Shown here piece after piece: positions 1-20,197 of a stretch of 20,197 bases of DNA (position 1 is the first letter of the stretch; each line of letters opens with the position of its first letter). The notes beneath the pieces are model-generated. The model was not told the origin of the DNA. It made no database searches and saw only the letters and a list, made by a program, of their open reading frames with translations. A program made the translations under genes and the position numbers. The stretch is from a virus: IMG/VR virus record IMGVR_UViG_3300025889_001217, positions 1 through 20,197 of that record; one strand, given 5' to 3'.

Positions 1-337
1 ACGCTTCCTCTTCTGGGCTGGCGCGGCGAATGACAGTTTCTTCGCCAACAGGCGCAACAATTTCTGGCGCACCCTTTTCGGTGACGCGAGCCTCTGCTGC
101 GCGTGTCGCTTTTTGAAGCGCCTTTGCACCACCAACAAACACATCTTTAAGACCGGCGACTTGTACTGGCTCGCCAACGGCAATAACGTCAGACGGCCCA
201 ACAGGCTCAGAAGGAATAACCTCTGGCAAAACCGGCTCTTCTGGCGGCTGCTCAAATTTCACCTGTTGCAGATCGCGCTCTGCGTTTTCTTTGTTAATAA
301 GCGCGTCTAGGTCTTTAGGTGCTACTGGCATCTTCAT
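1..337 (-). CDS. N-terminal part of a virion-associated protein of unknown function (runs off left edge)
   Basis: An open frame starts at ATG 337 and continues without a stop to base 1, giving 112 codons of an incomplete gene. It overlaps the 3' end of the upstream ART-domain gene by 23 bp. An AGGA-type ribosome site (AGGAAG) lies a few bases upstream of ATG 337 and suits it better than the in-frame ATG at 331. The visible part is hydrophilic and rich in Pro, Glu and Val, with no transmembrane segment and no motif I recognise. It contains a VGGAKALQK stretch resembling VGAQKALQK in the neighbouring ART-domain protein. By position after the gp14-like and large internal proteins it could begin a very large gp16-like ejection protein. 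That is inference from order only. Confidence 0.7.
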   Translation of the reverse strand, partial: MKMPVAPKDLDALINKENAERDLQQVKFEQPPEEPVLPEVIPSEPVGPSDVIAVGEPVQVAGLKDVFVGGAKALQKATRAAEARVTEKGAPEIVAPVGEETVIRRASPEEEA

Positions 338-6589: not shown

Positions 6590-6590
6590 G

Positions 6591-7205
6591 TTAGTACCTT
6601 ATATCTGAAATCGGGAACTCTTGTATTTGCTGTGCTGGCCGGTCAGCGCCGTCAATGTTAATGGCAACGCGCACCAGACCGCCGCGCATATTTTCTGCTG
6701 GCGCACCATATGCCTTTGCGTGGTAATAATCAGCCTTGGTAATCTGATCAGTGATAGGCTCGGCAAATTCTGCCGCGAGCGCCATCTTTAACAACCGCAC
6801 AAAATATGGCGGGAAAGCGGCAGGCTCTGGGCGAAATTGGTAATCAATCCAGACATCTTCATAATTTGTATAAAGGCCGAGGCTGTAAACCTCAAAGTCA
6901 CGCACCGGCAGCGCACCAATTGCGCCTGTGTTAAATACAGCCTTTGGGTTTCCAAGGATGTCGCCGGGCAAAGCGTAAGTATATTTCCACTCGTTGATCG
7001 GCGTACCGGCAAGCTGCGCAAGCCTGACCTTTTTGACTGACCAAGAATAAGCATATTGCATTAAGAGGGTATCGCGCACGTCGTCATAGAGACGGTCAGC
7101 GATTTGTGCTTCATCGGTGCCAGTCGCAAACGATGAAAGCGGGGCAGCGCCCAGCATGATCAGAGCCTCGGAACATATAGAAAGTTTGGTATCGCCCTGC
7201 GCCAT
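6591..7205 (-). CDS. Tail tubular protein A (adaptor, T7 gp11-like)
   Basis: 204 aa, the usual length for gp11-type adaptors. The pattern is typical: an N-terminal ICSEALIMLGAAPLSSF segment, then DEAQIADRLYDDVRDTLL, a basic loop, YALPGDILG in the middle, and a FPPYFVRLLKMALAAEFAEP helix near residues 130-150. In T7-like virions a 12-mer of this protein connects the portal to the nozzle. The start is ATG 7205 with a GGAG ribosome site 7 bases upstream. A stable hairpin precedes it, separating it from the coat-adjacent gene, while the downstream nozzle gene follows after one base. Confidence 0.92.
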   Translation of the reverse strand: MAQGDTKLSICSEALIMLGAAPLSSFATGTDEAQIADRLYDDVRDTLLMQYAYSWSVKKVRLAQLAGTPINEWKYTYALPGDILGNPKAVFNTGAIGALPVRDFEVYSLGLYTNYEDVWIDYQFRPEPAAFPPYFVRLLKMALAAEFAEPITDQITKADYYHAKAYGAPAENMRGGLVRVAINIDGADRPAQQIQEFPISDIRY

Positions 7206-7220
7206 TACGCCACTCCAAAA

Positions 7221-7252
7221 TGGGGAAATGGGGCGGCTTGCGCCGCCCCACT
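7221..7252 (-). terminator. GC-rich hairpin between coat-adjacent gene and tail tubular A; possible weak terminator
   Basis: Read on the minus strand, TGGGGCGGC, loop GCAA, GCCGCCCCA form a perfect 9-bp stem at 7229-7250. It can be extended by a G-T and an A-T pair and is capped by a GNRA-type tetraloop. The following bases are TTTCCCC then ATTTT, so the U-tract is broken and termination would be partial. It begins a few bases after the stop of the small gene at 7257. It would lower expression of tail genes relative to the coat gene, or protect the 3' end of the coat transcript. Confidence 0.6.
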
Positions 7253-7256
7253 ATTA

Positions 7257-7529
7257 TTAGTCTGTGTCGGTCATTGCGATGGCTGTGCCATCGGTCACGT
7301 CGACCACACCAGAAGCGTTTGACGCCACCATCACAATTGACAGTGTTGGTGTCGCGCTGTCGTGAACAAAGATCACGTCGCCGACTGCCAGAGTGTCTGA
7401 CAGATCATTGAAATAACCCGCTGTGTTCACAGTCGCAATCGCGTCTGCTGATGTGTAAGTGTACATTGATGGTGCGTTGCCTTTTTTAGCTGCACCGATC
7501 ACGTTCCAACCTGCTGAAGAGAAAGCCAT
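7257..7529 (-). CDS. Small coat-adjacent protein, possible head decoration protein
   Basis: 90 aa, beta-rich, acidic overall, with no Cys. It contains a Thr/Ala-rich first half with NTAGYFNDLSDTLAVGDVI at about 45-63, followed by strands rich in Val, Ser and Thr. Proteins of this style, with a GYF(N/D)...L.VGD.I core, commonly sit just after the coat gene in marine phages. I suspect a capsid decoration or head-fibre role but no function is proven. It has one of the best ribosome sites in the window (AAAGGAG, 8 bases before ATG). It lies 15 bp after the coat gene and is followed by a hairpin, so it shares the coat transcript and is probably made in large amounts. Confidence 0.8.
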   Translation of the reverse strand: MAFSSAGWNVIGAAKKGNAPSMYTYTSADAIATVNTAGYFNDLSDTLAVGDVIFVHDSATPTLSIVMVASNASGVVDVTDGTAIAMTDTD

Positions 7530-7537
7530 TGTCTAAA

Positions 7538-7544
7538 CTCCTTT
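7538..7544 (-). promoter_or_regulatory. Strong ribosome binding site of the coat-adjacent gene
   Basis: AAAGGAG on the minus strand, 8 bases before the ATG at 7529, is nearly full anti-Shine-Dalgarno complementarity. It is stronger than most sites in this window and supports high expression of the 90-aa protein. Confidence 0.7.
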
Positions 7545-8378
7545 CTATTCAGTTGCGCTGATGGCAACGATACCTTCGGCGTCAATGGCTACTGCACCAG
7601 CAGAGAACATTGAAGCTACAAGGAACGATGTCTTTTCAGCAACGTAGTTGATTTCAGTCTTTTGGTTCATGCCAATGCCCATACCGACTGCATCTTTATG
7701 GAATGCAAAGCAGGTGCGGGTTGATGGCTTTGGCAGGCCGCCTTCGTCACGGTCGCCAATGGTGATGAACTTAAAACCAAGGAAGGTATCAAGCTGGCCT
7801 TGAACAAGAGCTTTAACGGCAGCGTAATCGCTAGATGCGATCTTGGTGTCGTCAAGCAATGCAGCCAGACCTGATGCGTGGATCAGCATACAGCGATCCT
7901 GTGCTGGTACGTTGCCAGTGTCGAGAAGCTCTTTAGCCTCAAGCAACTTAGCAAGGTTCATGTTTGTACCCGCGCCACCAACTGTTGTAGCAACAGTCAA
8001 TGCTGTACCAGAGCCAGACAGCGCATCGATCACTAGCTGATCCATACGACGCCCGATTGCACCTGACACTACCTGCACCAATTCACGACGCTCATCAAAG
8101 TTGATTTTCTGCTGTGAAAAGATGTCTGAGTATTCAGCAGCAATGTAGTCTGACATTGTTGCGGTTACTTGTGAGTACGACACATTCAGAGGTGTTACGT
8201 CTGTCTGTGGTACGCGAATGGTCGCGGTTCCCTTACCGATTTTTGGGAACTTGACCTGTGAGCCTTCGACATTTGTCCGCTCACGCACTACGCCAGCAAG
8301 GGCGCGTTGAGCGGCATAGGCTTGTTTGACCTCTGCATCGAAGAGCTGCACAAACGCATTTGAAACGCCTACAGCCAT
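7545..8378 (-). CDS. Major capsid (coat) protein, HK97-like fold
   Basis: 277 aa. The protein starts with a helix-rich N arm (MAVGVSNAFVQLFDAEVKQA) followed by VKFPKIGKGTATIR. It has the QKINFDERRELVQVVSGAIG helix around residues 89-108, an RCMLIHASGLAALL segment at about 162-175, and a C-terminal VASMFSAGAVAIDAEGIVAI strand. This pattern is that of compact HK97-fold coat proteins of podoviruses. It follows the scaffold gene, from which it is separated by a terminator, a near-consensus promoter and a leader of about 130 bases. An AAAAGGA ribosome site lies 8 bases upstream. The separate promoter fits the need for hundreds of coat copies per virion. Confidence 0.92.
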   Translation of the reverse strand: MAVGVSNAFVQLFDAEVKQAYAAQRALAGVVRERTNVEGSQVKFPKIGKGTATIRVPQTDVTPLNVSYSQVTATMSDYIAAEYSDIFSQQKINFDERRELVQVVSGAIGRRMDQLVIDALSGSGTALTVATTVGGAGTNMNLAKLLEAKELLDTGNVPAQDRCMLIHASGLAALLDDTKIASSDYAAVKALVQGQLDTFLGFKFITIGDRDEGGLPKPSTRTCFAFHKDAVGMGIGMNQKTEINYVAEKTSFLVASMFSAGAVAIDAEGIVAISATE

Positions 8379-8513
8379 TTCTCTATTCCTTTTGTAAAAG
8401 TTAAAGCACGATTTAACGCCAAACAGGTATCCTAAAAGGGCTGCGGCTTGGGCATATACGCTACGCCCCCAAGCGGGTCAAACAGGCCGCAAAGCGGGTA
8501 TCTGTCAATAGGG
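8379..8513 (-). promoter_or_regulatory. Leader of the coat gene with hairpin, direct repeats and a second possible promoter
   Basis: No gene is supported in this gap. It carries an inverted repeat of 7 bp (GCTTGGG and CCCAAGC at 8446-8452 and 8468-8474). It also has two direct copies of AAGCGGGT on the plus strand (8471-8478 and 8492-8499). A second sigma-70-like pair lies here, TTGACC at 8476-8481 and TATATG at 8453-8458, with a 17-base spacer. Any transcript from the stronger promoter at 8514 would carry most of this stretch as 5' untranslated RNA. Confidence 0.45.
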
Positions 8514-8542
8514 ATTGTATAAGAAAAAGCGAGGGCTGTAAA
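8514..8542 (-). promoter_or_regulatory. Near-consensus sigma-70 promoter for the coat gene
   Basis: On the minus strand TTTACA (8542 to 8537), a 17-base spacer and TACAAT (8519 to 8514) each match five of six consensus bases. Transcription would begin near 8507 and reach the coat start at 8378. The -35 box lies in the loop side of the upstream terminator hairpin, so terminator and promoter are interlocked. Confidence 0.6.
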
Positions 8543-8552
8543 CAACCCTCGC
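8524..8552 (-). terminator. Intrinsic terminator after the scaffold gene
   Basis: On the minus strand GCGAGGGTTG, loop TTTA, CAGCCCTCGC forms a 10-bp stem (one T-G pair) at 8552-8529, directly followed by five T. It starts 7 bases after the scaffold stop. This is a textbook intrinsic terminator ending the packaging and portal transcript before the coat gene. Confidence 0.85.
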
Positions 8553-8558
8553 AATTGG

Positions 8559-9329
8559 TTAGATTGTTGAATATTCATCGTTACCGTAGGCTTGCTCAAA
8601 GAGCTTTTCAACTTTGGCACGATACGCCGGGTCGGTCTGATATTCTGGCTTTCCGACCATTGACATCAATTCATCTTTTGACGGCGCACCAGCGGCAGGC
8701 CCAACATCAACAGGGATGGTTTTGTCGCCGTAGTAATTGCGAACCTTTTGCAAGGCTTTCATGCCTTGCGCCGTGCCACCCATAATGCGGAACTCTTCAA
8801 AGTCATCCGCTGACCAGACGCCCTTGCGAACCAGCCCCGACGCCCAGTCGGTCATTGACTTAATAACAACGTCGGCGTTCTTGCCGAGCTTTTCGTATTC
8901 TTCCTTATACGAAATTTCTGCGGCCTCTGCCTCATTACCAGCCATTGAGATGAACTTGCTGGCAAGCTCTTCAAATGCTGACTGGCTTACGCCGTTCTCT
9001 TTAGCCCAGTCCTTGTATGTAGCGTAAAGCTCGTCATCCTCTGGGATGCCCGCATCTTTAAATACGCTATCATCATATTCCTCTGGGGCTTTGTGCTTGC
9101 CTTGGCTAAATTTCTTTTGCAATTCAGCATAGGCATTTGCCAAATCTTCCGGCTGGTTAAATTTTTCCGGCAACCACTCTGGCCGGGCATCAGCCTCTTC
9201 AGATGCAACTGCATCACTTGCAACCGTCTCATTATCAGGTTTGATGTGTGAGATTGTTTCTTCTGCTTGCTGCTGGTTATCGTCGCTCTCAATTTGAGCA
9301 TCGGCCAGCAGGCCATCAGTTTCGTTCAT
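8559..9329 (-). CDS. Capsid assembly scaffold protein (T7 gp9-like)
   Basis: 256 aa, very acidic and mostly helical. The N-terminal third is low in complexity and rich in Glu, Asp and Gln. It is followed by the common phage motif PEWLPEKFNQPEDLANAYAE at residues 53-72. The C-terminal quarter contains GAPSKDELMSMVGKPEYQTD, also typical of phage scaffolds. Scaffold proteins line the inside of the procapsid and leave before DNA is packaged. The ATG overlaps the upstream stop (ATGA). An intrinsic terminator follows the stop codon, so scaffold is on the same transcript as portal but not as coat. The order portal, scaffold, coat supports the call. Confidence 0.88.
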   Translation of the reverse strand: MNETDGLLADAQIESDDNQQQAEETISHIKPDNETVASDAVASEEADARPEWLPEKFNQPEDLANAYAELQKKFSQGKHKAPEEYDDSVFKDAGIPEDDELYATYKDWAKENGVSQSAFEELASKFISMAGNEAEAAEISYKEEYEKLGKNADVVIKSMTDWASGLVRKGVWSADDFEEFRIMGGTAQGMKALQKVRNYYGDKTIPVDVGPAAGAPSKDELMSMVGKPEYQTDPAYRAKVEKLFEQAYGNDEYSTI

Positions 9330-9595
9330 AGTGATCTCGCTCTTTTCATGCGCCGCTCAATTTCTCTGACCAGACTATTCTGGCCTTCTCTAGCATAACC
9401 GTGTGAAGCATCCTCGCCGGGATACCACGTTGGCTGCTCTATCGTCAGTGACCTTAGATGAGTGAGCAGCTTTGCCCCATCGTCACTGGCGAACACGCGC
9501 AAATAGAGACGATCAACATCGTCTTTATCTACCTGCTGTTTTTCTGCAATTGTCGGGTCTACGTTTTGTAGACCTTCCCACCCTGTCGCGTTCAT
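9326..9595 (-). CDS. Bbp19-like small phage protein between portal and scaffold
   Basis: 89 aa from ATG 9595. An upstream in-frame start at 9622 would overlap the portal gene and lacks a good ribosome site, whereas AAGGGG precedes ATG 9595 by a suitable distance. The core DRLYLRVFASDDGAKLLTHL (about 28-47), then Pro/Trp, an AREGQNSLVREIERRM segment and a basic tail match the pattern of Bbp19-type proteins. Those are common next to portal genes and have no known function. It follows the portal stop after one base and overlaps the scaffold start by 4 bp (ATGA), so it belongs to the head operon. Confidence 0.7.
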   Translation of the reverse strand: MNATGWEGLQNVDPTIAEKQQVDKDDVDRLYLRVFASDDGAKLLTHLRSLTIEQPTWYPGEDASHGYAREGQNSLVREIERRMKRARSL

Positions 9596-9596
9596 A

Positions 9597-11168
9597 CTAC
9601 ACCCCTTCTGGCGGTGCCTCACCTTGCGGCATTTCGCCCGCCTCTGCTTGCGCCGCCATCTGGGCGGCTTCCATTGCCTGCTGCATCATCTCGGCGCGTT
9701 CCTCTGGCGTAGTGCGTAGGCTCGCCGGAATGCCGAGCTTGTCAGCAACATAGTCTGCAATGCTGCCAGTCTTGACAGCCATCTGACCCTCTGGGCCAAG
9801 GGCTGACGACATTTGCACCCACTGCATAATTTTCTCAATGTCGCCCATATTCTGAGCCTGCGCAATTGGGCTGACCGGCGTTACCTTTACCTCTAGCCCA
9901 TTGACGCGCAGTGGCATCTCAATCATGCCGCGCTCATCCATCACATATAGGATGCGGCTAATAAGCGGCACCATAGTCTCAGTGATCAGACGGCCAAAGG
10001 CAGACCCAAGGTTCTGCGCCAACTCTTTCATGCGCTCGGCAATCTCTGTGGCTGACCGGGCTGACATATTATCTGGCGGCAGTGTGTCGTCGAGCAAAAT
10101 CTTTTTCACGTTCATGCGCAAATCATTGATGATGATCTGCGACACGTTGAAATCACCAGAGCGCGGCAACATCCGCAGGCTCTCGCCTGACGGCCCGCCG
10201 TTACGCGCAACAGGGATAATTGCACCCGGCGCAATGCGAATTGCCTGCGGGTTTAGGACGCCGTCGTCAGCCGCCGTGTAAACACCGGCAATAGACAAGC
10301 TGGCATTTTTCAGCAACAACTCTAGCGTTTTGTTTAGCGTCTTGATGTCAGGAATAGCCGTTACCAAAGGCCCGCGACCATAAACCTCACCGGCGACCTT
10401 CATGTAACGCGCCACAATCCAAGGCGACGATTTCATGCGGCGCATTAGCAAGCCTTCTTTGCCTTCAGCCCAGATGACGTGATAGCAATAGTCGCCTTCC
10501 TCTGGGTCATACAAGGTCGCCTCGACAAGCTCGATTTCTTCTGTTGGCTTGTCGTCAATCATGCGCTGCAAGCGTGGCGGGATTTCAGCGTCAGCCCAAT
10601 GCTGGTTGATGGCCTCGCCTTTCATGCGCATACGCCGGTAAACGTTATCGACCTTGCCGTGCGCACCTTCCTCGATGCTGACAAGGTATTGCGGCACGGC
10701 AGTAAAGCGGATTGGCGTCAAATCATCACCGGGCTGCACCAGCATACAAGCGGTGCCAACAGCCAAGTCCAGCAAGAACTCGCCCATAGCCAAATCAAAG
10801 TTAGACTGGCGCAATACGCTAAACATTGTGTCGGCATACATATCCAGCGCAATCTGCGCCTCAATGCGGCGATCCTCTGGGATTTCTGGCCCCGGCTCTA
10901 GGCGGCACCAAGGCGCGTAAGGTGGAAACAGGCCAGACTGGATACGGTTCGCAAAGCGCTGCGTCGCATTGATGGCGGTACTGTCGAACACGCGCACCAT
11001 TTTATTTTGCCCCGGAGAGCCGCCGCCCTCGTAATAGCCATCGTAAAGATTGCGCTGCGGTAAGCCGAACTCGTAGCAATCTTCGTAAATCTGACGCCAG
11101 TTATCTTTGCGACGCTGCGCCACGTCGTGACGCTTTAGGATATCTTCAACACTATGCACTGGCTTCAT
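9597..11168 (-). CDS. Portal protein (head-tail connector, T7 gp8-like)
   Basis: 523 aa from ATG 11168, normal for podovirus portals. It carries the head-tail connector signatures: DSTAINATQRFANRIQSG at about 62-79, directly followed by LFPPYAPWCRLEPG, and a central TAIPDIKTLNKTLELLLKNA helix. The C-terminal end is rich in Gln, Ala, Met and Glu, as in portal barrel regions. Twelve copies normally form the DNA channel at one vertex. The start is not fully settled. An AAAAGGA site touches ATG 11168 directly, which is too close, while GTG 11159 nine bases on would have ideal spacing. A longer frame from 11264 would overlap the previous gene by over 100 bp and is unlikely. Confidence 0.93.
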   Translation of the reverse strand: MKPVHSVEDILKRHDVAQRRKDNWRQIYEDCYEFGLPQRNLYDGYYEGGGSPGQNKMVRVFDSTAINATQRFANRIQSGLFPPYAPWCRLEPGPEIPEDRRIEAQIALDMYADTMFSVLRQSNFDLAMGEFLLDLAVGTACMLVQPGDDLTPIRFTAVPQYLVSIEEGAHGKVDNVYRRMRMKGEAINQHWADAEIPPRLQRMIDDKPTEEIELVEATLYDPEEGDYCYHVIWAEGKEGLLMRRMKSSPWIVARYMKVAGEVYGRGPLVTAIPDIKTLNKTLELLLKNASLSIAGVYTAADDGVLNPQAIRIAPGAIIPVARNGGPSGESLRMLPRSGDFNVSQIIINDLRMNVKKILLDDTLPPDNMSARSATEIAERMKELAQNLGSAFGRLITETMVPLISRILYVMDERGMIEMPLRVNGLEVKVTPVSPIAQAQNMGDIEKIMQWVQMSSALGPEGQMAVKTGSIADYVADKLGIPASLRTTPEERAEMMQQAMEAAQMAAQAEAGEMPQGEAPPEGV

Positions 11169-11451
11169 TCCTTTTGCTAATAGCTGCGGCCTTCTTTTTC
11201 GCGTCTGCCTTGGAGCTTGCGCCCCAAGCGCGAAGCGACAAGAGCAGGCGCGTTGGTTCGCCATTCTTATATTCCGGCCCCGGCATCCCGCCCATACGAG
11301 CCAAGAATGATGCGCGGCGCGGATTGTCGCCAGACTTGACTGGCGCTTTTAGGTTCATGCCCTCGGCTTTAGCTGAAGCCCTGCCTTTGGCATTCAAGCC
11401 GCCGGATGGGTTCTTGCCCTCAGACCGTTGCCAAGCTGGTGTTTTAGCCAC
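11152..11451 (-). CDS. Small conserved basic phage protein (DUF6321-like)
   Basis: 99 aa, GTG start at 11451 with an AGGG site 6 bases upstream. The sequence is highly patterned: KTPAWQRSEGKNPSGGLNAK near the N terminus, NPRRASFLARMGGMPGPE in the middle and LLLSLRAWGASSKADAKKKA toward the end. I recognise it as the small basic protein often labelled DUF6321 in marine phages (family number from memory). Function is unknown; the Arg/Lys content and the position just before portal suggest a virion or DNA-associated role. It overlaps the portal start by 17 bp and the preceding small gene by 8 bp. Confidence 0.8.
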   Translation of the reverse strand: MAKTPAWQRSEGKNPSGGLNAKGRASAKAEGMNLKAPVKSGDNPRRASFLARMGGMPGPEYKNGEPTRLLLSLRAWGASSKADAKKKAAAISKRNEASA

Positions 11452-11605
11452 GCGCTGCCCTCATGTTATCAACGAGATTTGGGTATGGACGCCCAGCCTT
11501 TGCTGCCGCCCGCATAGCCTTGCGCTTCTGTGCCGGGCTTAAACCTTTCGGCTTGCCCAAGCCCTTTGGCCGGTCTTTATCCCAAACCTCTTTTTTCTTT
11601 TCCAT
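11444..11605 (-). CDS. Small basic protein, 53 aa
   Basis: A short gene from ATG 11605 to TAA 11444. The product is Lys/Arg-rich, with WDKDRPKGLGKPKGLSP at 8-24 and AGRPYPNLVDNMRAARG at the C terminus. The C-terminal AGRPYPNLVDN pattern recurs in small phage proteins near terminase and portal genes, which supports it being real despite the length. The start codon overlaps the stop of an 11-codon ORF (TAATG) and the end overlaps the next start by 8 bp. No function is known. The strong positive charge would suit DNA or nucleocapsid contact, but that is speculation. Confidence 0.65.
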   Translation of the reverse strand: MEKKKEVWDKDRPKGLGKPKGLSPAQKRKAMRAAAKAGRPYPNLVDNMRAARG

Positions 11606-11640
11606 TACTTGCCGTAACCCTTGCCTTTTTTCTTACCCAT
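11605..11640 (-). CDS. Possible 11-aa micro-ORF (MGKKKGKGYGK)
   Basis: ATG 11640 to TAA 11605 encodes a Lys/Gly-rich 11-residue peptide. A purine-rich ribosome site (GGGGAAGG) lies upstream, inside the end of the preceding gene. Its ATG overlaps that gene's stop by 8 bp and its TAA overlaps the next ATG by one base. It may be a real micro-protein or simply a coupling device that hands ribosomes from one small gene to the next. Length alone gives no homology evidence. Confidence 0.35.
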   Translation of the reverse strand: MGKKKGKGYGK

Positions 11641-11767
11641 TCTTTTTCACCTTCCCCGCCTCTTGCATTGCAATGGCGATAGCTTGCTTTAATGGCCTGC
11701 CTTCGCGCCGCAGCATAGATATATTTTTGCTTACGGCTTTCTTGGATTTGCCTTTAGCCAGTGGCAC
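11633..11767 (-). CDS. Small conserved protein MPLAKGKSKK family (DUF6496-like)
   Basis: 44 aa with a GTG start at 11767 overlapping the previous stop (TAGTG). The sequence pattern PLAKGKSKKAVSKNISML at 2-19, a charged turn, then GRPLKQAIAIAMQEAGK at 23-39 is that of a widespread short phage protein family sometimes labelled DUF6496-like (label uncertain). I recognise the pattern and not a function. Two short helices separated by a basic turn are likely. No separate ribosome site is obvious, so translation probably depends on coupling to the upstream gene. Confidence 0.7.
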   Translation of the reverse strand: MPLAKGKSKKAVSKNISMLRREGRPLKQAIAIAMQEAGKVKKNG

Positions 11768-12054
11768 TAGGCTGACCCAAGCGTGTCTTGAGTATCACCG
11801 CGACCGCCGCCACGTCCACCCAAACGGCTGGCGTAAAGCAAACCGCGCTGGCCTACTCTGCCGCCGCGTTTCTTTCTTGCTGCGGCTGCGCCAGCTTGTG
11901 CTGCAGTTTGTACTGGCGTTGCTGGTGCAGCAATCTGATCAGCTAATTGCTTTACAGTTGTGCCGGTGGCAAGTTCTGCCATAGCAACAGTATCGGCTTT
12001 TTTCTTTGGGCCAATTCCAATTGCGCCGCCAACTTTTTTAACTACATTGCTCAT
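11767..12054 (-). CDS. Paralogous small protein C of three (gp7.3-like?)
   Basis: 95 aa. The N terminus is MSNVVKKVGGAIGIGPKKK, the middle is Ala/Thr/Gln-rich and the C terminus is RKKRGGRVGQRGLLYASRLG followed by a Gly/Arg run and DTLGSA. The C-terminal plan (basic run, G-x-R-x-LL-x3-R, ending TLG) is shared with the two genes immediately upstream, so the three are a tandem family. Size, basic Gly-rich C terminus and position upstream of the portal recall T7 gp7.3, a small virion/tail assembly protein; this comparison is from memory and tentative. It ends in TAGTG, coupling to the next gene. Confidence 0.7.
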   Translation of the reverse strand: MSNVVKKVGGAIGIGPKKKADTVAMAELATGTTVKQLADQIAAPATPVQTAAQAGAAAARKKRGGRVGQRGLLYASRLGGRGGGRGDTQDTLGSA

Positions 12055-12058
12055 ATTG

Positions 12059-12301
12059 CTATCCTAATGTTGATTGCCTAGTTTCATCTTCTGGCGCACC
12101 AGTCAACCTTGTTGCATAAAGCAAACTGCGCTGGCCGCCCATACGGCGATCTCGGCGCTTTCTTGCTGCGGCTGCATTTTTTTGCGCCTCAGTTTGTTCC
12201 GTGGTAATAGGCGCAGGCTTTGGCGCTGTTCCTTCTTTTATCTTTTCAACAAAGGTTTTACCGCCAACCTTCATGCCCATAACTTTTTTAAACGCGCCCA
12301 T
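12059..12301 (-). CDS. Paralogous small protein B of three (gp7.3-like?)
   Basis: 80 aa. A basic N terminus (MGAFKKVMGMKVGGKTFVEK), a Pro/Thr/Glu-rich middle and a C terminus AARKRRDRRMGGQRSLLYAT followed by RLTG and QSTLG. It aligns at its C-terminal third with the genes on both sides. It shares 16 identical bases with gene A at the stop region and a near-identical block encoding the LLYA segment with gene C. This indicates duplication rather than convergence. Gaps to its neighbours are 2 and 4 bases. The N termini of the three differ, so each may contact a different partner while the C-terminal tag is common. Confidence 0.7.
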   Translation of the reverse strand: MGAFKKVMGMKVGGKTFVEKIKEGTAPKPAPITTEQTEAQKNAAAARKRRDRRMGGQRSLLYATRLTGAPEDETRQSTLG

Positions 12302-12324
12302 AATTACGATCCTAATGTTGATTG
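12061..12324 (-). repeat. Pair of identical 16-bp direct repeats at the 3' ends of paralogs B and A
   Basis: The plus-strand sequence atcctaatgttgattg occurs at 12061-12076 and again at 12309-12324, 248 bp apart. In both it encodes the terminal QSTLG of the small protein. Identity at the codon level suggests recent duplication or gene conversion among the tandem paralogs. Confidence 0.8.
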
Positions 12325-12534
12325 ATCTTCGGCTGTACCGCCGCGAATGCTTGACAGCAGCATACGACTGCCGCCCATACGACGTGCGCGTTGACGCGCC
12401 GCAAGCTGCTTTGCCTGCAATTGCTCTTGCGCCTCAAGGCGTTCCTCTTGCCGTTTTTGTGCGGCAGTCACCTCTGGCGCGACTTGCTCCGGCGTAGGCA
12501 TCGCTGGCATTTTAGGTTTGAAAAGATTGCTCAT
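12304..12534 (-). CDS. Paralogous small protein A of three (gp7.3-like?)
   Basis: 76 aa. The N terminus MSNLFKPKMPAMPTPEQVAP is Pro-rich, the middle is a Glu/Gln/Arg helix (about 24-50) and the C terminus is RRMGGSRMLLSSIRGG then QSTLGS. Short phage proteins with an Ala/Arg-rich helix, a G-x-R-x-LL element and a terminal TLG or TLLG are common near portal or terminase genes and usually have no assigned role. It overlaps the gp13-like gene by 4 bp (ATGA) and leads the tandem set of three. Confidence 0.7.
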   Translation of the reverse strand: MSNLFKPKMPAMPTPEQVAPEVTAAQKRQEERLEAQEQLQAKQLAARQRARRMGGSRMLLSSIRGGTAEDQSTLGS

Positions 12535-13007
12535 TCGTAAATCCTTGCGAACATCATGTGATCTATACCGCCCGCACCATATTTGCGCATGACGCCTTCT
12601 GGCGTGAATTTTAACATCTTTGCCCAGCGCATCGCAAGCTCGTTTTCCACGTCGACAGTGATTTGCAATCTTTTTAATTTATGTTCTATAGCAATCTTAT
12701 TGAAATATCTAATAGCAGCCCTAGTTACTGTCACAGATATATTGGGAAACTCTATAGATGTTATCATCCAAGCCTCAGAGACGCCCGGCCACATATTATT
12801 GCAACCCAAGCAGGCGATGATCTTGCCGCGCCACAGCGCCGTAATTGCGCCGCCCTCGGCTTGAAACGCCTTTAGCATATCCTGATAATTCGGAATATTG
12901 TCAAACGCCCGCTTGTCAAACTCGCGCAAATCCATCGCGTAGGGGTGCGCCCAGTGAAACGGCACAATCTGAACCTGACGATTGTTCGTTATTTCGCGCT
13001 GCCACAT
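12531..13007 (-). CDS. T7 gp13-like protein, acyl-CoA N-acyltransferase fold
   Basis: 158 aa. The pattern is GNAT-like: strands around ITALWRGKIIACLGCNNM (54-71), WMITSIEFPNISVTV (79-93), a helix TRAAIRYFNKIAIEHKLKRL (94-113), then LQITVDVENELAMRWAKMLK (113-132), F-x-x-EGVMRKYG and a closing MMFARIYE strand. The acetyl-CoA loop (Q/R-x-x-G-x-G/A) is not evident, as in phage gp13-type proteins, which may have lost catalysis. In T7 gp13 is needed for virion assembly and lies among internal-protein genes; here it sits between terminase and portal. Its ATG overlaps the terminase stop (TGATG) with no clear ribosome site, so it is probably translated by coupling. Confidence 0.75.
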   Translation of the reverse strand: MWQREITNNRQVQIVPFHWAHPYAMDLREFDKRAFDNIPNYQDMLKAFQAEGGAITALWRGKIIACLGCNNMWPGVSEAWMITSIEFPNISVTVTRAAIRYFNKIAIEHKLKRLQITVDVENELAMRWAKMLKFTPEGVMRKYGAGGIDHMMFARIYE

Positions 13008-14560
13008 CAGAATACACTAAAATCCATATTGGCTGTGGCCTGCTTGAACTGCTTGCTAAACTGGCTGTTGCGCGTGATGTTCCGCACCTCGCCAGCGCCA
13101 AGCATCAAATAGCCAAACGCATCGCCGACGTGCGAGTGTTGGTTTTTATTCGGCACATCGCGGAACCGTTCTTGTCCAGACCCGACGGCCATACGCTTGA
13201 AATGATACCCGCCAGCCAGCGACTTGCGCACCTTGGCGCAAGAACGATTAACCAAAAGCCCCGGCTTGCCGTCGATCAGCCTGTTCATCGGCATAGCCCC
13301 AGCCTCGCGTCGCACCATAAAATCGTTGGTGCTGGTCGGTCTAGCGTGAAGCCCCATTGTGCGCAAATGCTCAAACGCCGTGACCTCAAATATTTCGTCG
13401 CGCTTGACGCCCGCCGGATCGCCCCAGATCAGCACGTCCGACTTTGGAAAGTGCTGCTGTATGTCAGCCAGCAAGTGATGGCAAAACCTTTCCAAGCCCA
13501 TATCAAACGCGACTAACTCATGCACGACGTGCCACCGCCCATTCTGCATCTTCTGCCCAAAGACAGCCGCAGGGGTCAAACCAAAGTCAAGCCCGATATG
13601 CACCGGCCAGCCTTCCTCGATGCGCACGTCAGCCGACATCATGCTGTCAGAAAACTCATGCCAGACAGGCTTGCCGTCCTGCACAAACACATATTGCGCC
13701 CCAGCGTAGCATTGTATCCAGTCAATGCTCTTACCGGCTAACTGCTGCTCGTAATAGCCGGGCGGCAGATTATTCGTATTCTCGGCCTTTGGGTTATTGA
13801 TCCAGTATTTATCAGCCGCAAATATTGCGTTCTCATGTTCTTTCGTACCCTCAACCACACCACCCGGCTGCTTGTAAAACTTCCAAGGATATTTTCCGCG
13901 AATGGGGTTCTTCTCAGCTAACTGGTGCCACCAGTGGTCGCTATCCATTGGGTTGGTACTCATCCACACGCCGCGCCAAGTGCAGCCCGCATTCGCCCGC
14001 GTCGGGTAACGACCGACACGCGACGTCAATCCATCAACCACCGCCTTTGGCAACTCACGCGCCTCGTCAATAAAGCCGCCGGTCAATTCAAGCGACAACA
14101 GCTTTCGCACGTCACGCGGCTGATCCAGCGCCAAAAAGATCACCTCACAATCAAGCCCAGCCGCGCCATCGCGCGGCGGCAGCTTGATGTGATGGGTGAT
14201 CGGCGGCGACCAGCGCATTGGCCCCCAAACATTCTCAGGGAATAACTCTTGCCACGTCTTAATCGTGGTCGTGCGTAACTCCGGGTAGCTGTTCCTGATA
14301 ACTGCAAACCGAGTATATCTGATCCCATCTATCGGCGACGGTTCCTGTTTCACCGCCCTCAACATCACTTCCGCTAAGGAACCGAATGTCTTGCCAGAGC
14401 CGACTGGCCCCATCAGACCACGCACAAAGCTGTCGTCGTTTAAAAAATCCCATACCGTCGGGCTTTCAGAAAAATCCAAATTCAGACCCGCAAGCGCGTC
14501 AGTGGTAGGCTCTTTCCTACGCCGGGGTGATCTGTCAGTTGCTCTTGATGATCGCGCCAT
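13007..14560 (-). CDS. terL: Terminase large subunit
   Basis: 517 aa from ATG 14560, which follows the upstream TAG after one base and has an AGAGG site. An alternative TTG at 14578 only adds six residues. The ATPase half shows Walker A GPVGSGKT at 51-58 and Walker B GGFIDEARE at 161-169. The nuclease half shows GLDFG at 323-327, WGDPAG at 379-384 and HVGDAFGY at 477-484, which supply the acidic metal ligands of the RNase H-like fold. The protein pumps DNA into the procapsid through the portal and cuts concatemers. All expected motifs are present, so it should be functional. The likely small subunit lies two genes upstream. Confidence 0.95.
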   Translation of the reverse strand: MARSSRATDRSPRRRKEPTTDALAGLNLDFSESPTVWDFLNDDSFVRGLMGPVGSGKTFGSLAEVMLRAVKQEPSPIDGIRYTRFAVIRNSYPELRTTTIKTWQELFPENVWGPMRWSPPITHHIKLPPRDGAAGLDCEVIFLALDQPRDVRKLLSLELTGGFIDEARELPKAVVDGLTSRVGRYPTRANAGCTWRGVWMSTNPMDSDHWWHQLAEKNPIRGKYPWKFYKQPGGVVEGTKEHENAIFAADKYWINNPKAENTNNLPPGYYEQQLAGKSIDWIQCYAGAQYVFVQDGKPVWHEFSDSMMSADVRIEEGWPVHIGLDFGLTPAAVFGQKMQNGRWHVVHELVAFDMGLERFCHHLLADIQQHFPKSDVLIWGDPAGVKRDEIFEVTAFEHLRTMGLHARPTSTNDFMVRREAGAMPMNRLIDGKPGLLVNRSCAKVRKSLAGGYHFKRMAVGSGQERFRDVPNKNQHSHVGDAFGYLMLGAGEVRNITRNSQFSKQFKQATANMDFSVF

Positions 14561-14561
14561 T

Positions 14562-14771
14562 CTACGCCTCTGGGTCAAAAATAATAGTCATATTATCATT
14601 AAAATCGTCGCTCTCTAATTCAAGCATAGGCCCGCCGCACTCAGTGCAAACAATAGCCTCGCCGCCATCATACACCCGCCCCCTAGTCAGCCGGGAGCAA
14701 TAGCCGCACAATATATCCCGCTTAAAAAATCTAACGCTAAAATATTCCTTCAAGTCGATCACGTCAGCCAT
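14562..14771 (-). CDS. Small zinc-ribbon protein between terminase subunits
   Basis: 69 aa from ATG 14771. A longer frame from TTG 14822 would overlap the previous gene by 59 bp and is disfavoured. Two CxxC pairs, CGYC (22-25) and CTEC (42-45), are spaced like a zinc ribbon. The C terminus is acidic (ESDDFNDN). The start overlaps the small-terminase stop by 8 bp, with GGAG about 10 bases upstream, and the large terminase follows after one base. Location between terminase genes suggests a role in packaging or late regulation, but no family function is known to me. Confidence 0.75.
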   Translation of the reverse strand: MADVIDLKEYFSVRFFKRDILCGYCSRLTRGRVYDGGEAIVCTECGGPMLELESDDFNDNMTIIFDPEA

Positions 14772-16726: not shown

Positions 16727-17261
16727 TCAATTCCTTTTCAAGTTTCGTTTTCACCTTTTCAACAGTAGCACCGGCGAACACAGCCTTGACAGCATCAACT
16801 GCCTTGCTCTCATCCCACGCTGCCAGCAACCTGCCGATCTCATCAACGCTGTAGACCAACATCTCGCGGTTGTCGCGCTTAACGCGGCTCACCTCGTAAT
16901 CATTTGGCACGATAGCCAACACACGGCCATCAGGCATCTTGCCCTCGATCCACTCGCCATTGAGCGGCTGCACACCAGCAGCGATTGCCGCCTGCTCAAG
17001 CGCTGCCACCCCGCGCAATGTCACGTCAACCTGATGCTCAACATCTTCCATCCTATCTATCGCAGCATTGAGCTTATCCATCTGAGCCTCAAAGCGATCT
17101 CTCAGATTACCACCCACTACCCAGATCAAACGATCCACCCCCCACTTGCGTTCAACCTCACTGACGCGATCATCGTAGCGATGCAGCGCATCCTGCATCC
17201 GACGCATCGCACCCTGATTAGGCGCATAGTGTTGCTTGCTTGGTTTTCTAACTCTTGCCAT
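16707..17261 (-). CDS. Coiled-coil protein with SSB-like C-terminal tip
   Basis: 184 aa, not a family I recognise. It has a basic N terminus (ARVRKPSKQH), helical coiled-coil segments (about 20-40 and 55-95), a beta-like central part (GEWIEGKMPDGRVLAIVPND, 102-121) and a C-terminal helix. It ends in NDEIPF, very close to the acidic DDDIPF tip of bacterial SSB that recruits repair and replication enzymes. GGGGAA upstream of ATG 17261 supports the start. It lies between the primase-helicase and a winged-helix protein, so a replication accessory role is plausible. Confidence 0.75.
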   Translation of the reverse strand: MARVRKPSKQHYAPNQGAMRRMQDALHRYDDRVSEVERKWGVDRLIWVVGGNLRDRFEAQMDKLNAAIDRMEDVEHQVDVTLRGVAALEQAAIAAGVQPLNGEWIEGKMPDGRVLAIVPNDYEVSRVKRDNREMLVYSVDEIGRLLAAWDESKAVDAVKAVFAGATVEKVKTKLEKELNDEIPF

Positions 17262-17264
17262 TAC

Positions 17265-17384
17265 CTATTCCCCTATGCCGAGGACTATGAGAAAGAGATC
17301 CCCTATAGTGGGGATCTCATCTCCGTCATATCCGGTCATCAGTCCGATCACTATGAGATTGCTATGAGATTTAACCTTTCTCAT
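17265..17384 (-). CDS. Possible 39-aa coupled small protein
   Basis: ATG 17384 overlaps the primase-helicase stop by ATGA, and a GGGGAG site lies 8 bases upstream inside that gene. The frame runs 39 codons to TAG 17265, three bases before the next start. The product has two short hydrophobic stretches (NLIVIGLMTG at 9-18 and LFLIVLGIG at 30-38) around an acidic turn. It fills the only gap between two genes and uses the same coupling style as the rest of the window. The same DNA also forms an inverted repeat, so it might instead be a regulatory region that happens to be open. Confidence 0.5.
   Translation of the reverse strand: MRKVKSHSNLIVIGLMTGYDGDEIPTIGDLFLIVLGIGE
17295..17318 (-). promoter_or_regulatory. 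Perfect inverted repeat with T7-type promoter-like core
   Basis: GAGATCCCC, ACTATA, GGGGATCTC on the minus strand form 9-bp perfect arms with a 6-base loop. Within it CACTATAGGG (17309 to 17300) equals the -7 to +3 part of T7 and K11 phage promoters; the upstream specificity part does not match T7. It could be a phage RNA polymerase promoter, an operator, or a weak hairpin terminator (only TTTCTC follows). Confidence 0.35.
17351..17370. repeat. Direct repeat CTATGAGAT, 11-bp period
   Basis: CTATGAGAT occurs at 17351-17359 and 17362-17370, one helical turn apart. The shorter form CTATGAGA also occurs at 17284-17291 on the other side of the inverted repeat. Spacing of one turn fits a protein-binding operator. 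Confidence 0.45.
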
Positions 17385-19192
17385 CTCACATTCTCCCCTA
17401 ACTCTTTGTTAATCCACACTTTCCCCCCATCAATAATCACAACGCCCTTTAATTGCAGTGCCGCGCGGTCATCTGAGCGCTTTCTGGACGTGAAATCGTC
17501 GCATTTTTGCTTGTGCAAATCCTTCCAACGATCCAGCGACATCTGCTGCACACCGGCATCAATGAGGCCATTCTGCAACGCTTGAAGCGCCAGCAATTGA
17601 CCCGGCGTCAGCTTTGCCCCGCGCTTCTTGTCGGCCATTTCGACTGGCAATAGCACTGCGCTGCTGTCGTCAATGAGAGCCACCGGCGTTAGCTCATACT
17701 GCTCATCAGCTATTGGCTCTGCATCTTTTTGTTTTTCCATCTTGAGCGTCACACGCCCCTCACTGCTCGACAGCGCCAACACAGTGTCTGACAGACCCAT
17801 CAGGCTGCTGCTGCCCCTCATGCCCCTCGCGGCGTCCTTGCCAGAGTGATGCACGGCCAGCACGGCGCAGTCAGCGTGGCGCTGTATAACACCGCACATC
17901 TCACCAAACTGCCCCATAGCCGTCGCGTCATTCTCATCTGAGCCGGTGCTGGCTAGTGTCCGAGCCACAGTGTCAATCACAATAAGGCTAAACTCTTGCT
18001 TGAAATTGTCGATGGTGCGTATCAGCTTGTCGAGTTCTTGCTGGTCAAGCAGCTTGACAGCCATTGGCAAGACGTAGAACGGCGCGTCGCCGTAACGGTC
18101 ATAGTGCGCCTGCCACGCTCGGACGCGCTTGCCAAGGCCGCCAACGCCTTCCGCCGCTAGGTACAGCACAGCGTTTTGCTTTGTTTGCCTGCCGTGCCAC
18201 TCTCTGCCATAGGCAATAGACAACGCCCAATCAATTGACATGAACGACTTACCAATGCCCGGCGCACCGTACAGCACAGCAAAGCCGTGGCGCGTTAGGA
18301 TGCCATCCAGCAACCACTCGACCGGCGGCATATTCTTGAGGTAATCGAGGTTGTACGTCTCAAACACGTCAGGCTTTGGCTCTGGCGCTACCTCAACCAC
18401 CGGCGTTTGCTTGGCTAAGGCCAGCAACGCCGCCTTGTCACCGCCAGCTTGCAGCCAATCGGCCACGTCACCCTTTGGCGGCAGGTTCGGCAGGTCGAGG
18501 CGCTTGATCTTGCCCACCGTGCCGTACAGCGCCGCTATCACTGTGTCTGCGTGTGCCTGACCAGCCTCGTCATTGTCTGGCAGCACTACGACATTGCGCC
18601 CCTCGAAATACTGCGCAAGCTCCGGCTTCCAATTCTTTGACCCGCCACTGTTGGTCGTGGCGATCAGGCCAAGCTCAATCAACGCATCGGCGCATTTTTC
18701 GCCCTCAACAATAAACACCGGCGCTTGTGGGTTAGTAATGATGGCCGGTAGATTATATGGCAGGGCTTCAATGTCCTTGATGCTGTTGATCCAGCCACCC
18801 CTGTCATCAGGCCGACGCTGCCGGAAGGTCTTTGGGTTATCGAACCGCAACACCTGATAGGCTAGTACGCCGTCAGCATTATAATAATCGTAAGAACGTG
18901 CGAGGCTCGGCACGACTGGCAGGCTCTTTTGCTGCTGTCTGCTGATGCCGAACTTACGCTCAAGCACGTCGGGGATGTTGCCATTGATGCTTGCTGGCTC
19001 GTTTGCCTTTACCAATGCCACAACGCCACCGCTTTCGCCTGTCTCAAAATCTGTCCAAACCCCTTTACGCAGGCAAACCGACTTGCTGCCATTGTTTCCA
19101 AAGCGCAACTCTGTGCCTTTCGACAGGCGCGGGTTCGGCTCACCCCAATAGTGCCTCGCCACCTGTTCAATATATGCTGCTATGTTCGTCAT
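17381..19192 (-). CDS. Primase-helicase (Toprim plus RecA-like ATPase)
   Basis: 603 aa from ATG 19192, which has GGGG 7 bases upstream; longer frames run into the structured leader and are unlikely. The N-terminal 100 residues resemble the primase-type zinc-domain remnant without Cys pairs (GVWTDFETGESGGVVALVK). The Toprim region shows VFIVEGEK at 159-166 and VVVLPDND at 201-208 with the catalytic Glu and Asp residues. The RecA-like/RepA-type helicase part has Walker A GAPGIGKS at 309-316, Walker B SLIVIDT at 402-408 and VLAVHHSG at 444-451. The C terminus (about 525-603) may be a winged helix. It should unwind and prime the phage fork. It follows an SSB-like gene across a structured gap and ends in ATGA with the next ORF. 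Confidence 0.9.
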   Translation of the reverse strand: MTNIAAYIEQVARHYWGEPNPRLSKGTELRFGNNGSKSVCLRKGVWTDFETGESGGVVALVKANEPASINGNIPDVLERKFGISRQQQKSLPVVPSLARSYDYYNADGVLAYQVLRFDNPKTFRQRRPDDRGGWINSIKDIEALPYNLPAIITNPQAPVFIVEGEKCADALIELGLIATTNSGGSKNWKPELAQYFEGRNVVVLPDNDEAGQAHADTVIAALYGTVGKIKRLDLPNLPPKGDVADWLQAGGDKAALLALAKQTPVVEVAPEPKPDVFETYNLDYLKNMPPVEWLLDGILTRHGFAVLYGAPGIGKSFMSIDWALSIAYGREWHGRQTKQNAVLYLAAEGVGGLGKRVRAWQAHYDRYGDAPFYVLPMAVKLLDQQELDKLIRTIDNFKQEFSLIVIDTVARTLASTGSDENDATAMGQFGEMCGVIQRHADCAVLAVHHSGKDAARGMRGSSSLMGLSDTVLALSSSEGRVTLKMEKQKDAEPIADEQYELTPVALIDDSSAVLLPVEMADKKRGAKLTPGQLLALQALQNGLIDAGVQQMSLDRWKDLHKQKCDDFTSRKRSDDRAALQLKGVVIIDGGKVWINKELGENVR

Positions 19193-19205
19193 ATCATTAC
19201 CCCAA

Positions 19206-19266
19206 TCCCTTGACCCCTTTAAAGCGTGACCGGCGACGGTCAAGGGAGGAACCCGCCGCCGGTCAC
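19206..19266 (-). promoter_or_regulatory. H-type pseudoknot-like leader of the primase-helicase gene
   Basis: On the minus-strand RNA, stem 1 pairs 19266-19255 with 19237-19226 (12 bp, one G-U; core GUGACCGGCG/CGCCGGUCAC). The loop of stem 1 holds UCCCUUGACC (19247-19238), which is perfectly complementary to GGUCAAGGGA downstream (19215-19206). The two helices interlock as a classical H-type pseudoknot, with loops of 7, 0 and 10 bases. It ends two bases before the GGGG ribosome site of the helicase gene. No U-tract follows, so it is not an ordinary terminator. Confidence 0.55.
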
Positions 19267-19274
19267 TACCGCCG

Positions 19275-19904
19275 CTAAAACAAATCAGCGCCCTCGACAA
19301 CTGAAGGGGTTGCAGCAATCGGGGCTGCTACAGCGGCGGGTTCTGGGGCAGCTTCTGCCTTATCTAAGCCAGCGGGGCGATCAACCCAGCCAGCAATCGA
19401 CCATTTAGGCGAGCGGAACGTCTGCGTTCCCTGCGCCTTAGTCTCGATCTGGATGCGATCAGAGCCGGTGATCTCAATGACCGGCACCTTGCCGGGGTTG
19501 TCGGCCTTACCAGCCAGATACGCATCGTGCAAATCATTCATCTGATTACGCACGATCTTGCTGCTGCTGCTCATCTCGCGCAGGCCGATCTCTTTGTTGT
19601 ACATCCTGATGCGGAAGCCTTCCTTGTGTTCATCAGAGGGCTTGACCGGCATCGGCTCGCCAACCTTGACAAAGCGAAAATCAGGGCCAGTCGTTGTAAA
19701 GGCGATAAACCCAACCTCGATTGCGTCCATATCCATAACCACTTTAAAAGGCAAATCCATTTCGGTTTCGCTCTTTTCCCAGTGGCCGTCTGCCCCTTGG
19801 TGCCGGTCTTGGCGCACGAATGAGCCATCCTTTGCACTGAATTTCATAATAGGTAGGAAATCCCCACCGCCTGATGATGTAGTCTCTTGAAAACCTAAAG
19901 CCAT
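19275..19904 (-). CDS. Putative ssDNA-binding protein
   Basis: 209 aa from ATG 19904, chosen because GGAG lies 6 bases upstream; ATG 19916 would add four residues and itself overlaps that site. The protein begins MALGFQETTSSGGGDFLPIM, then has beta-rich parts including IEVGFIAFTTTGPDFRFVKV, EGFRIRMYNKEIGLREMSSS and GKVPVIEITGS. It continues with WSIAGWVDRP, an Ala/Pro-rich flexible tail and GADLF at the end. I recognise the pattern from alphaproteobacterial phages, where it lies beside replication or recombination genes and is taken as an OB-fold ssDNA-binding protein. The flexible tail ending in an acidic-aromatic tip fits that role. The function is inferred. Confidence 0.65.
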   Translation of the reverse strand: MALGFQETTSSGGGDFLPIMKFSAKDGSFVRQDRHQGADGHWEKSETEMDLPFKVVMDMDAIEVGFIAFTTTGPDFRFVKVGEPMPVKPSDEHKEGFRIRMYNKEIGLREMSSSSKIVRNQMNDLHDAYLAGKADNPGKVPVIEITGSDRIQIETKAQGTQTFRSPKWSIAGWVDRPAGLDKAEAAPEPAAVAAPIAATPSVVEGADLF

Positions 19905-19928
19905 CTTTTTCTCCATTTAACTTTAGAA

Positions 19929-20197
19929 CTACCGCACGACCAGTGCGGCTTGGATCGGGAAATAGGCACAGATATCCGCGTCTTGGCTATCGCCTCTGTC
20001 GCTTCTGCCACCCTTCCCCAATGTGTAATCGCCCGCGAAATCGAACCGGGCGATATTATCCTTATAAACATTCAGCAGATACGCTGGCAAGCCTGTGTGC
20101 TGCGTCAGCGTCCTCGCTTGTATAACTTTTGACAGGCTAACCATCGCTGTGTCGTACTGCAACAGCCGCACATTACGATGCTTCACCTCAATAAATG
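19929..20197 (-). CDS. C-terminal part of a PD-(D/E)XK-type nuclease (cut by right edge)
   Basis: The frame stays open to the last base, so the gene begins beyond the window; a GTG at 20186 is not the true start. The first visible residues are FIEVKHRN, the hydrophobic-E-x-K strand of PD-(D/E)XK nucleases. Next come a helix (RLLQYDTAMVSLSKVIQART), a GLPAYLLNVYKDNIARFDF strand pair and an RSDRGDSQDADICAYFPI segment. The layout suits a Holliday-junction resolvase or similar structure-specific nuclease of the replication module. The upstream catalytic Asp is not visible here. The SSB-like gene starts 24 bases after its stop. Confidence 0.7.
   Translation of the reverse strand, partial: FIEVKHRNVRLLQYDTAMVSLSKVIQARTLTQHTGLPAYLLNVYKDNIARFDFAGDYTLGKGGRSDRGDSQDADICAYFPIQAALVVR

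Follow-up and report, generated by a model that had tools for sequence, protein, structure and literature searches.

The gap between an SSB-like gene and the gene that follows it, usually a DNA helicase, carries a well-supported H-type pseudoknot in a large and diverse group of environmental, mostly marine phages. The element stands directly before the SD of the next gene and probably controls that gene's translation. We describe it in one phage genome, referred to as the window (the whole stretch of DNA analysed, 20,197 nucleotides of IMG/VR record IMGVR_UViG_3300025889_001217), and then by comparison with its relatives.

The gene-like ORFs of the window are on the minus strand, and the element is read on the same strand. 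A first-pass annotation of this DNA had reported a 12-bp stem enclosing a loop of which 10 nt are perfectly complementary to a tract downstream, and both the coordinates and the topology were confirmed on the minus strand. In the order of the mRNA, the parts are as follows.

19275..19916, minus strand: SSB-like gene, an ORF of 213 aa, stop UAG at 19277-19275, C-terminus ...GADLF
19267..19274, minus strand: spacer of 8 nt from the SSB-like stop codon to stem 1
19255..19266, minus strand: 5′ strand of stem 1 (S1a), GUGACCGGCGGC, from pairing, MFE fold and covariation
19248..19254, minus strand: loop 1 (L1), 7 nt, GGGUUCC
19238..19247, minus strand: 5′ strand of stem 2 (S2a), UCCCUUGACC, containing the conserved CUCCC/UCCC loop core
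19226..19237, minus strand: 3′ strand of stem 1 (S1b), GUCGCCGGUCAC, from pairing and MFE fold
19216..19225, minus strand: loop 3 (L3), 10 nt, GCUUUAAAGG
19206..19215, minus strand: 3′ strand of stem 2 (S2b), GGUCAAGGGA, the pre-SD tract, with its 3′ end 13 nt before the helicase AUG
19200..19203, minus strand: SD-like GGGG of the helicase, outside the pseudoknot pairing
17381..19192, minus strand: primase-helicase gene, 603 aa, AAA_25, PHROG primase/helicase, AUG at 19192-19190

Stem 1 (S1) has 12 bp; assigning it the CC that it shares with S2 makes 14 bp. Stem 2 (S2) has 10 bp, Watson-Crick throughout. The strand order S1a-S2a-S1b-S2b, with 0 nt between S2a and S1b, is that of an H-type pseudoknot. 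In the plain hairpin, two G of loop 1 may pair with the CC common to S2a. The sequence 3′ of S2b reads UUGGGGUAAUGAU.

Chance matches were estimated by shuffling. When the downstream segment was shuffled 20,000 times, a 10-bp Watson-Crick match to the loop arose in 6 cases (380 with G-U allowed), and a stem as long as S1 arose in 7 of 2,000 shuffles of the gap. When both strands of the 20-kb window were scanned, S1 was its most stable simple stem, and the only one having a strong loop-to-downstream helix. MFE folding, which cannot represent pseudoknots, recovered S1 as a plain hairpin capable of 14 bp (z = −2.15). The decisive support for the pseudoknot is its conservation, together with compensatory change, as read from the sequences of relatives. 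Further strong hairpins were seen on the mRNA strand at 8529-8552 and 7227-7252 (minus strand) of the window, one in a 180-nt gap preceding the capsid gene, the other behind a 90-aa gene.

Relatives were collected by querying with the two proteins, helicase and SSB-like, and with alignments of each. This gave about 280 loci (some contigs being repeated): IMG/VR entries, two contigs of Opitutae MAGs, and a phage from Manatee Spring in GenBank that carries homologues of both genes. The gap, defined as the stretch from the SSB-like stop to the next start codon, was extracted in 96 distinct versions. S1 was present in all 96, with 11-17 bp and close behind the SSB-like stop; in 78 of them it began 6-9 nt past this stop. 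Its sequence varies freely so long as pairing is kept. RNAalifold predicted S1 from 31 closer sequences, 6 of its 11 pairs having the support of two-sided changes, and among 26 diverged representatives, with S1 aligned by its outer pair only, 156 two-sided against 12 one-sided changes were counted. G-U pairs made up 51 of 486 S1 pairs, and stems were shorter when the complementary strand was searched in the same way, which indicates a structure formed by RNA of mRNA sense. A scan of all collected loci, on both strands, found like structures at essentially this junction only. The two Opitutae MAG contigs (L282 and L283) were the sole contigs of bacterial genomes with the SSB-like gene, L282 having the helicase too; they may hint at the host of one branch, or be viral contigs binned alongside.

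S2 was called when the loop paired, at −10 kcal/mol or better, with a downstream tract whose end left 10 nt or more to the next AUG. Such a helix was present in 81 of the 96 distinct gaps, and its partner was the tract just 5′ of the SD, despite differing sequences. The pairing of loop and downstream tract in relatives had been put forward in the first-pass annotation as a test of the pseudoknot; it is kept in 81 of 96 gaps, with compensatory changes. Examples of S2a/S2b pairs are given below.

Window: UCCCUUGACC/GGUCAAGGGA
L007: UCCCUUGCCCC/GGGGCAAGGGA
L023: UUCCCUGU/ACAGGGAA
L042: UCUCCCG/CGGGAGA
L147: GUUCUCCC/GGGAGAAC
L187: UCUCCCGA/UCGGGAGA
L153: UCCCUUUG/CAAAGGGG

Covariation was counted on structure-anchored pairs, as a MAFFT alignment misplaces the loop register between subclades. 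For S2, with the 26 diverged representatives anchored on the C-run, 34 two-sided and 12 one-sided cells were found. Shuffles carried out sequence by sequence gave p values no better than 0.1-0.8 for many relatives, a consequence of the pyrimidine richness of the loop and the purine richness of the RBS. Since some pairing between loop and RBS is thus expected from composition, permutations with foreign partners were used. Loops paired better with their own pre-SD tract than with foreign tracts in 37 representatives less than 80% alike (z = −6.5, 0 of 20,000 permutations). The result was unchanged with Watson-Crick pairs only, and was still 0 of 20,000 with 18 stricter representatives. The SD region itself showed a weak excess or none (z = −2.7 when G-U was allowed, −1.2 for Watson-Crick pairs alone, and no excess in the stricter set). 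The loop is therefore specific not for the SD but for the pre-SD tract immediately upstream of it, which is the conserved partner. Judged by these comparisons, both helices are maintained by compensatory change.

Burial of the RBS by pairing of the loop with the SD itself had been considered, since the core of the loop resembles an anti-SD and two to three purine tracts matching the loop occur in many relatives. It was set aside on the specificity of the own-versus-foreign permutation for the pre-SD tract.

In 17 of the 81 gaps, the best S2 leaves a loop 3 of just 3-5 nt, which is tight across a stem of 11-14 bp. A second partner tract is often present further on in the gaps with a short loop 3. 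Tandem tracts complementary to the same loop, about 7-11 nt apart, were observed in L147, L151, L187, L192, L280, L051, L254 and L066; in L280, for instance, the loop GUCUCCC meets GGGAGAC twice. Tandem partner tracts may possibly form a two-state pseudoknot.

The position of the second helix relative to the next gene was then compared. In 48 of the 81 gaps, 12 or 13 nt separate the end of S2b from the next AUG; in a second group this distance is about 19-21 nt, and many relatives have a further, tandem partner tract there. As this distance is near-constant while the length of loop 3 ranges from 3 to 20 nt across gaps, S2b is fixed to the start codon and not to S1. The SD lies outside S2 in most lineages, and the segment from S2b to the AUG retains anti-SD complementarity (median −6.3 kcal/mol across relatives). 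The first-pass annotation had placed the structure next to the ribosome site of the helicase, and had read it as an H-type pseudoknot. Both points held up: the two stems covary in relatives and S2b keeps a near-fixed distance from the next start codon, so that a role at the ribosome site of the next gene is well supported.

The remaining 15 of the 96 gaps had no S2 of this kind, and most of these were shorter. In these hairpin-only lineages, 16-25 nt remain between the hairpin and the AUG, and an edge of structure near the initiating ribosome is thus still kept. Several of them (e.g. L160, L265, L184) have U5-U8 directly past the stem, as in a terminator. A hairpin between the SSB-like gene and the helicase, followed by 7-8 U, was seen at L160:1200-1262, L265:623-684 and L166:1936-1994. 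In L160 and L265, a loop helix covers the SD itself. On a helicase tree of 88 rows, presence or absence of the pseudoknot required 4 changes, against a mean of 13.2 after shuffling. A distant relative whose SSB-like protein is 44% identical, L284 (MW202711), has, in the stretch 3631-3714, a hairpin behind the stop, with no pseudoknot seen by eye; a second small hairpin there, CCGCGA...TCGCGG, carries the SD in its loop.

Six loci contained a whole gene between the pseudoknot and the helicase.

L008:340-873, inserted gene
L013:1225-2046, inserted gene
L048:2168-3004, inserted gene
L176:1168-2004, inserted gene
L193:1345-2004, inserted gene
L262:3206-4045, inserted gene

The inserted genes were of at least four kinds: a PAPS-reductase domain, a DNA modification gene of the Mom family, an acetyltransferase-like gene (by eye only) and one of no assigned kind. 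In the six loci, the pseudoknot stays 5′ of the inserted gene, whose RBS adjoins it, and the inserted gene overlaps the helicase by 4 nt (ATGA) in all six. Overlap of the next gene with the SSB-like gene was found in 0 of 96 gaps. Gene overlaps couple translation, and a gap of about 20 nt nearly abolishes coupling (PMC10666635). Within the main clade, similarity of the gap tracked that of the SSB-like gene (partial rank correlation 0.70), and that of the helicase at only 0.10. Because the six accessory-gene loci keep the pseudoknot and the gap co-varies with the SSB-like gene, not with the helicase, the comparison identifies it as a cassette at the SSB end, serving whichever gene follows, rather than a helicase-specific operator. 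Accessory genes have thus entered repeatedly at this junction, and the neighbouring helicase sequence appears to recombine.

The identity of the SSB-like gene itself is plausible, in view of a conserved DLF tail past acidic residues (A/S/D-D-L-F in relatives) and of its position beside a primase-helicase. Pfam, PHROG and PDB searches, by sequence and by fold, gave no significant match among solved structures. The AlphaFold model is beta-rich (pLDDT 79), and SSBs occur among its fold matches solely at a non-significant level. Seven viral models match it at E ≤ 0.001, all uncharacterised or unnamed. Elsewhere in the window, the capsid and connector proteins (4382-14578) are 65-68% identical to those of Methylophilales phage MEP301, and this phage is absent among the matches listed for the helicase or the SSB-like gene; the genome is probably a mosaic. 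A 621-aa protein at 315-2180 (minus strand) has a weak ADP-ribosyltransferase match (ART-PolyVal, E = 1e-5, under the curated cut-off).

What comparison establishes about the element is its fold, its strand, its edges, its partner tract and its independence from the identity of the next gene. As to function, we give a probability of about 50% to the following reading: a cis-acting H-type pseudoknot would isolate termination on the SSB-like gene from initiation at the next one, would present the SD or at least not bury it, and would set the level of the next gene. By general footprint sizes, the leading edge of a ribosome that holds the SSB stop in the A site would lie at approximately the foot of S1, and the upstream edge of one positioned on the next AUG at approximately the end of S2b, so that the structure should fit between both ribosomes unmelted. 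It would fill the space between them, stay folded during translation of the SSB-like gene, and make initiation at the next gene independent of that translation. With its loop paired to the sequence that immediately precedes the SD, the element would leave the SD presented, and the following gene, usually the helicase, would be set at a level relative to the SSB-like protein. No protein ligand would be required, and the working mode could be that of a repZ-like activator or of a rigid insulator. Several points count against this reading: translation would be uncoupled by a gap of 80 nt even if it were unstructured, so that uncoupling does not require the structure; loop 3 is tight in the 17 gaps named above; 15 gaps have no S2 of this kind; and the ancestry of the gap follows the SSB-like gene rather than the helicase, as would also suit an element that serves the SSB mRNA. 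More generally, and tentatively, the element may exemplify a structured "ribosome spacer", a notion that we would sooner bet against: its edges would be set by the footprints of terminating and initiating ribosomes (6-9 nt past the stop, 12-13 nt before the start), it would allow a highly translated gene and the next one to be translated independently on one message, and it would act as a cassette behind the SSB-like gene, feeding different genes.

Sequence alone is compatible with activation, insulation and repression, and S2b overlaps the upstream rim of the 30S footprint, so that repression is possible. The pseudoknot might then clash with the 30S subunit and lower initiation at the next gene until melted, keeping the helicase low relative to the SSB-like protein. 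S2b does extend to 12-13 nt before the AUG, which is inside most 30S footprints, the loop has its anti-SD-like CUCCC core, and the L160 and L265 helices over the SD would suit such a repressor. Across lineages, however, loops do not fit their own SD clearly better than foreign ones, the SD is outside S2 in most gaps, and the melting step has no candidate; we regard this reading as possible but doubtful. Alternatively, the element may serve the 3′ end of the SSB message, the stem slowing 3′-to-5′ decay or ending transcription so as to yield an excess of SSB-like protein, with S2 secondary. The position of the stem close behind the SSB stop in all 96 gaps, the co-inheritance of the gap with the SSB-like gene, with which it stays when genes are inserted behind, and the U5-U8 runs of several hairpin-only lineages argue for it. 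Nevertheless, the window stem is followed by GCUUUAAAGG, which has no U-run, so that this locus does not have the GC-rich stem and immediate U-run of an intrinsic terminator, and both the fixation of S2b to the next AUG and the covariation of S2 are left unexplained. This reading is unlikely; still, S1 is found more widely than S2, and for that reason protection from decay, or attenuation, by S1 has to be taken seriously as a competitor of the preferred role at the ribosome site of the next gene, or as a supplement to it.

The first-pass annotation had suggested, by analogy with T4 gene 32, that the SSB-like protein may control translation of the helicase, which it would do by binding the pseudoknot. 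The pseudoknot does adjoin the SSB-like gene, and gp32 is a precedent (PMC3014915), but it stands behind this gene and not in front of it, where the leader is 12 nt long. There is no A+U-rich tract over the RBS, which is G-rich, UUGGGGUAAUGAU following S2b; the S1 sequence is free to vary given pairing; accessory genes of unrelated function replace the helicase behind the pseudoknot in the six loci; and the SSB identity is itself putative. The suggestion is thus unsupported, and we hold it improbable. Recoding was rejected: a pseudoknot placed past a stop codon could stimulate frameshifting or readthrough to give an SSB-helicase fusion, and the window has the 8-nt spacing typical of recoding pseudoknots and a helicase frame open back into the SSB-like gene (ORF 17381-19318), but another gene follows in six loci, gap lengths modulo 3 are spread 37/31/28, and no more than 25 of the 96 gaps have an open downstream frame. 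We consider this very remote. Hardly more credible is a DNA-level feature (origin, recombination or insertion site) misread as RNA structure; the repeated gene entry and apparent recombination at the junction would fit it, whereas the many G-U pairs in the mRNA sense, the shorter stems of the complementary strand and the positioning of S2b relative to the start codon speak for RNA.

No match at gathering score was found in the window with the Rfam covariance models, including STAXI (best sub-threshold E = 1.3), and no description of the element was found in literature on phage SSB/helicase pseudoknots and "ssNA-helicase". To our knowledge, comparative support this strong for a pseudoknot helix is uncommon in bacterial or phage mRNA. 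The element is therefore an undescribed RNA structure, absent from Rfam, at one fixed place in a large and diverse group of environmental phages. The natural series that it offers (pseudoknot, hairpin only, hairpin with U-run, varied downstream genes) is a system for studying how folds at gene junctions set the output of a neighbouring gene, and whether ribosome footprints dictate where such folds start and end.

Among known structures, intercistronic hairpins and intrinsic terminators share the strong GC-rich stem directly past a stop, and the hairpin-only relatives resemble them; they differ in that 81 of the 96 gaps add a covarying helix from loop to pre-SD tract, and that most have no U-run. 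The rpsO pseudoknot is bound by the encoded S15 and overlaps the RBS. This E. coli operator is likewise a pseudoknot controlling translation initiation (mentioned in PMC3014915), but S2 of the phage element stops short of the SD. STAXI pseudoknots lie near ssb and other DNA-handling genes (PMC2864571); they form tandem arrays of two or three, often with UUCG loops, whereas the phage element is single, with a long stem. The gene 32 structures of T4, T2 and RB69 are also H-type pseudoknots of phages, neighbouring a gene for an ssDNA-binding protein (PMC3014915, PMC535899). In T4, the pseudoknot belongs to the leader of gene 32 itself and is located about 67 nt before the AUG, with gp32 spreading over an A+U-rich tract (PMC3014915), whereas the element described here follows the SSB-like gene and abuts the G-rich RBS of another gene. 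In repZ of plasmid ColIb-P9, a pseudoknot lies directly upstream of the RBS and translation depends on it (Asano and Mizobuchi 1998, as summarised in PMC8383071). In the phage element, too, the pairing partner of the loop directly precedes the SD of the next gene, but repZ is a plasmid replication gene under antisense Inc RNA, and its stems and sequence are unrelated. On the plus strand of the window (17200-20197), no sigma-70-like promoter for an antisense RNA was found, phage and other promoter types being outside this search. Pseudoknots that control translation, and pseudoknots near ssb genes such as T4 gene 32 and STAXI, were thus already known; the phage element is a new family, with an unusual placement.
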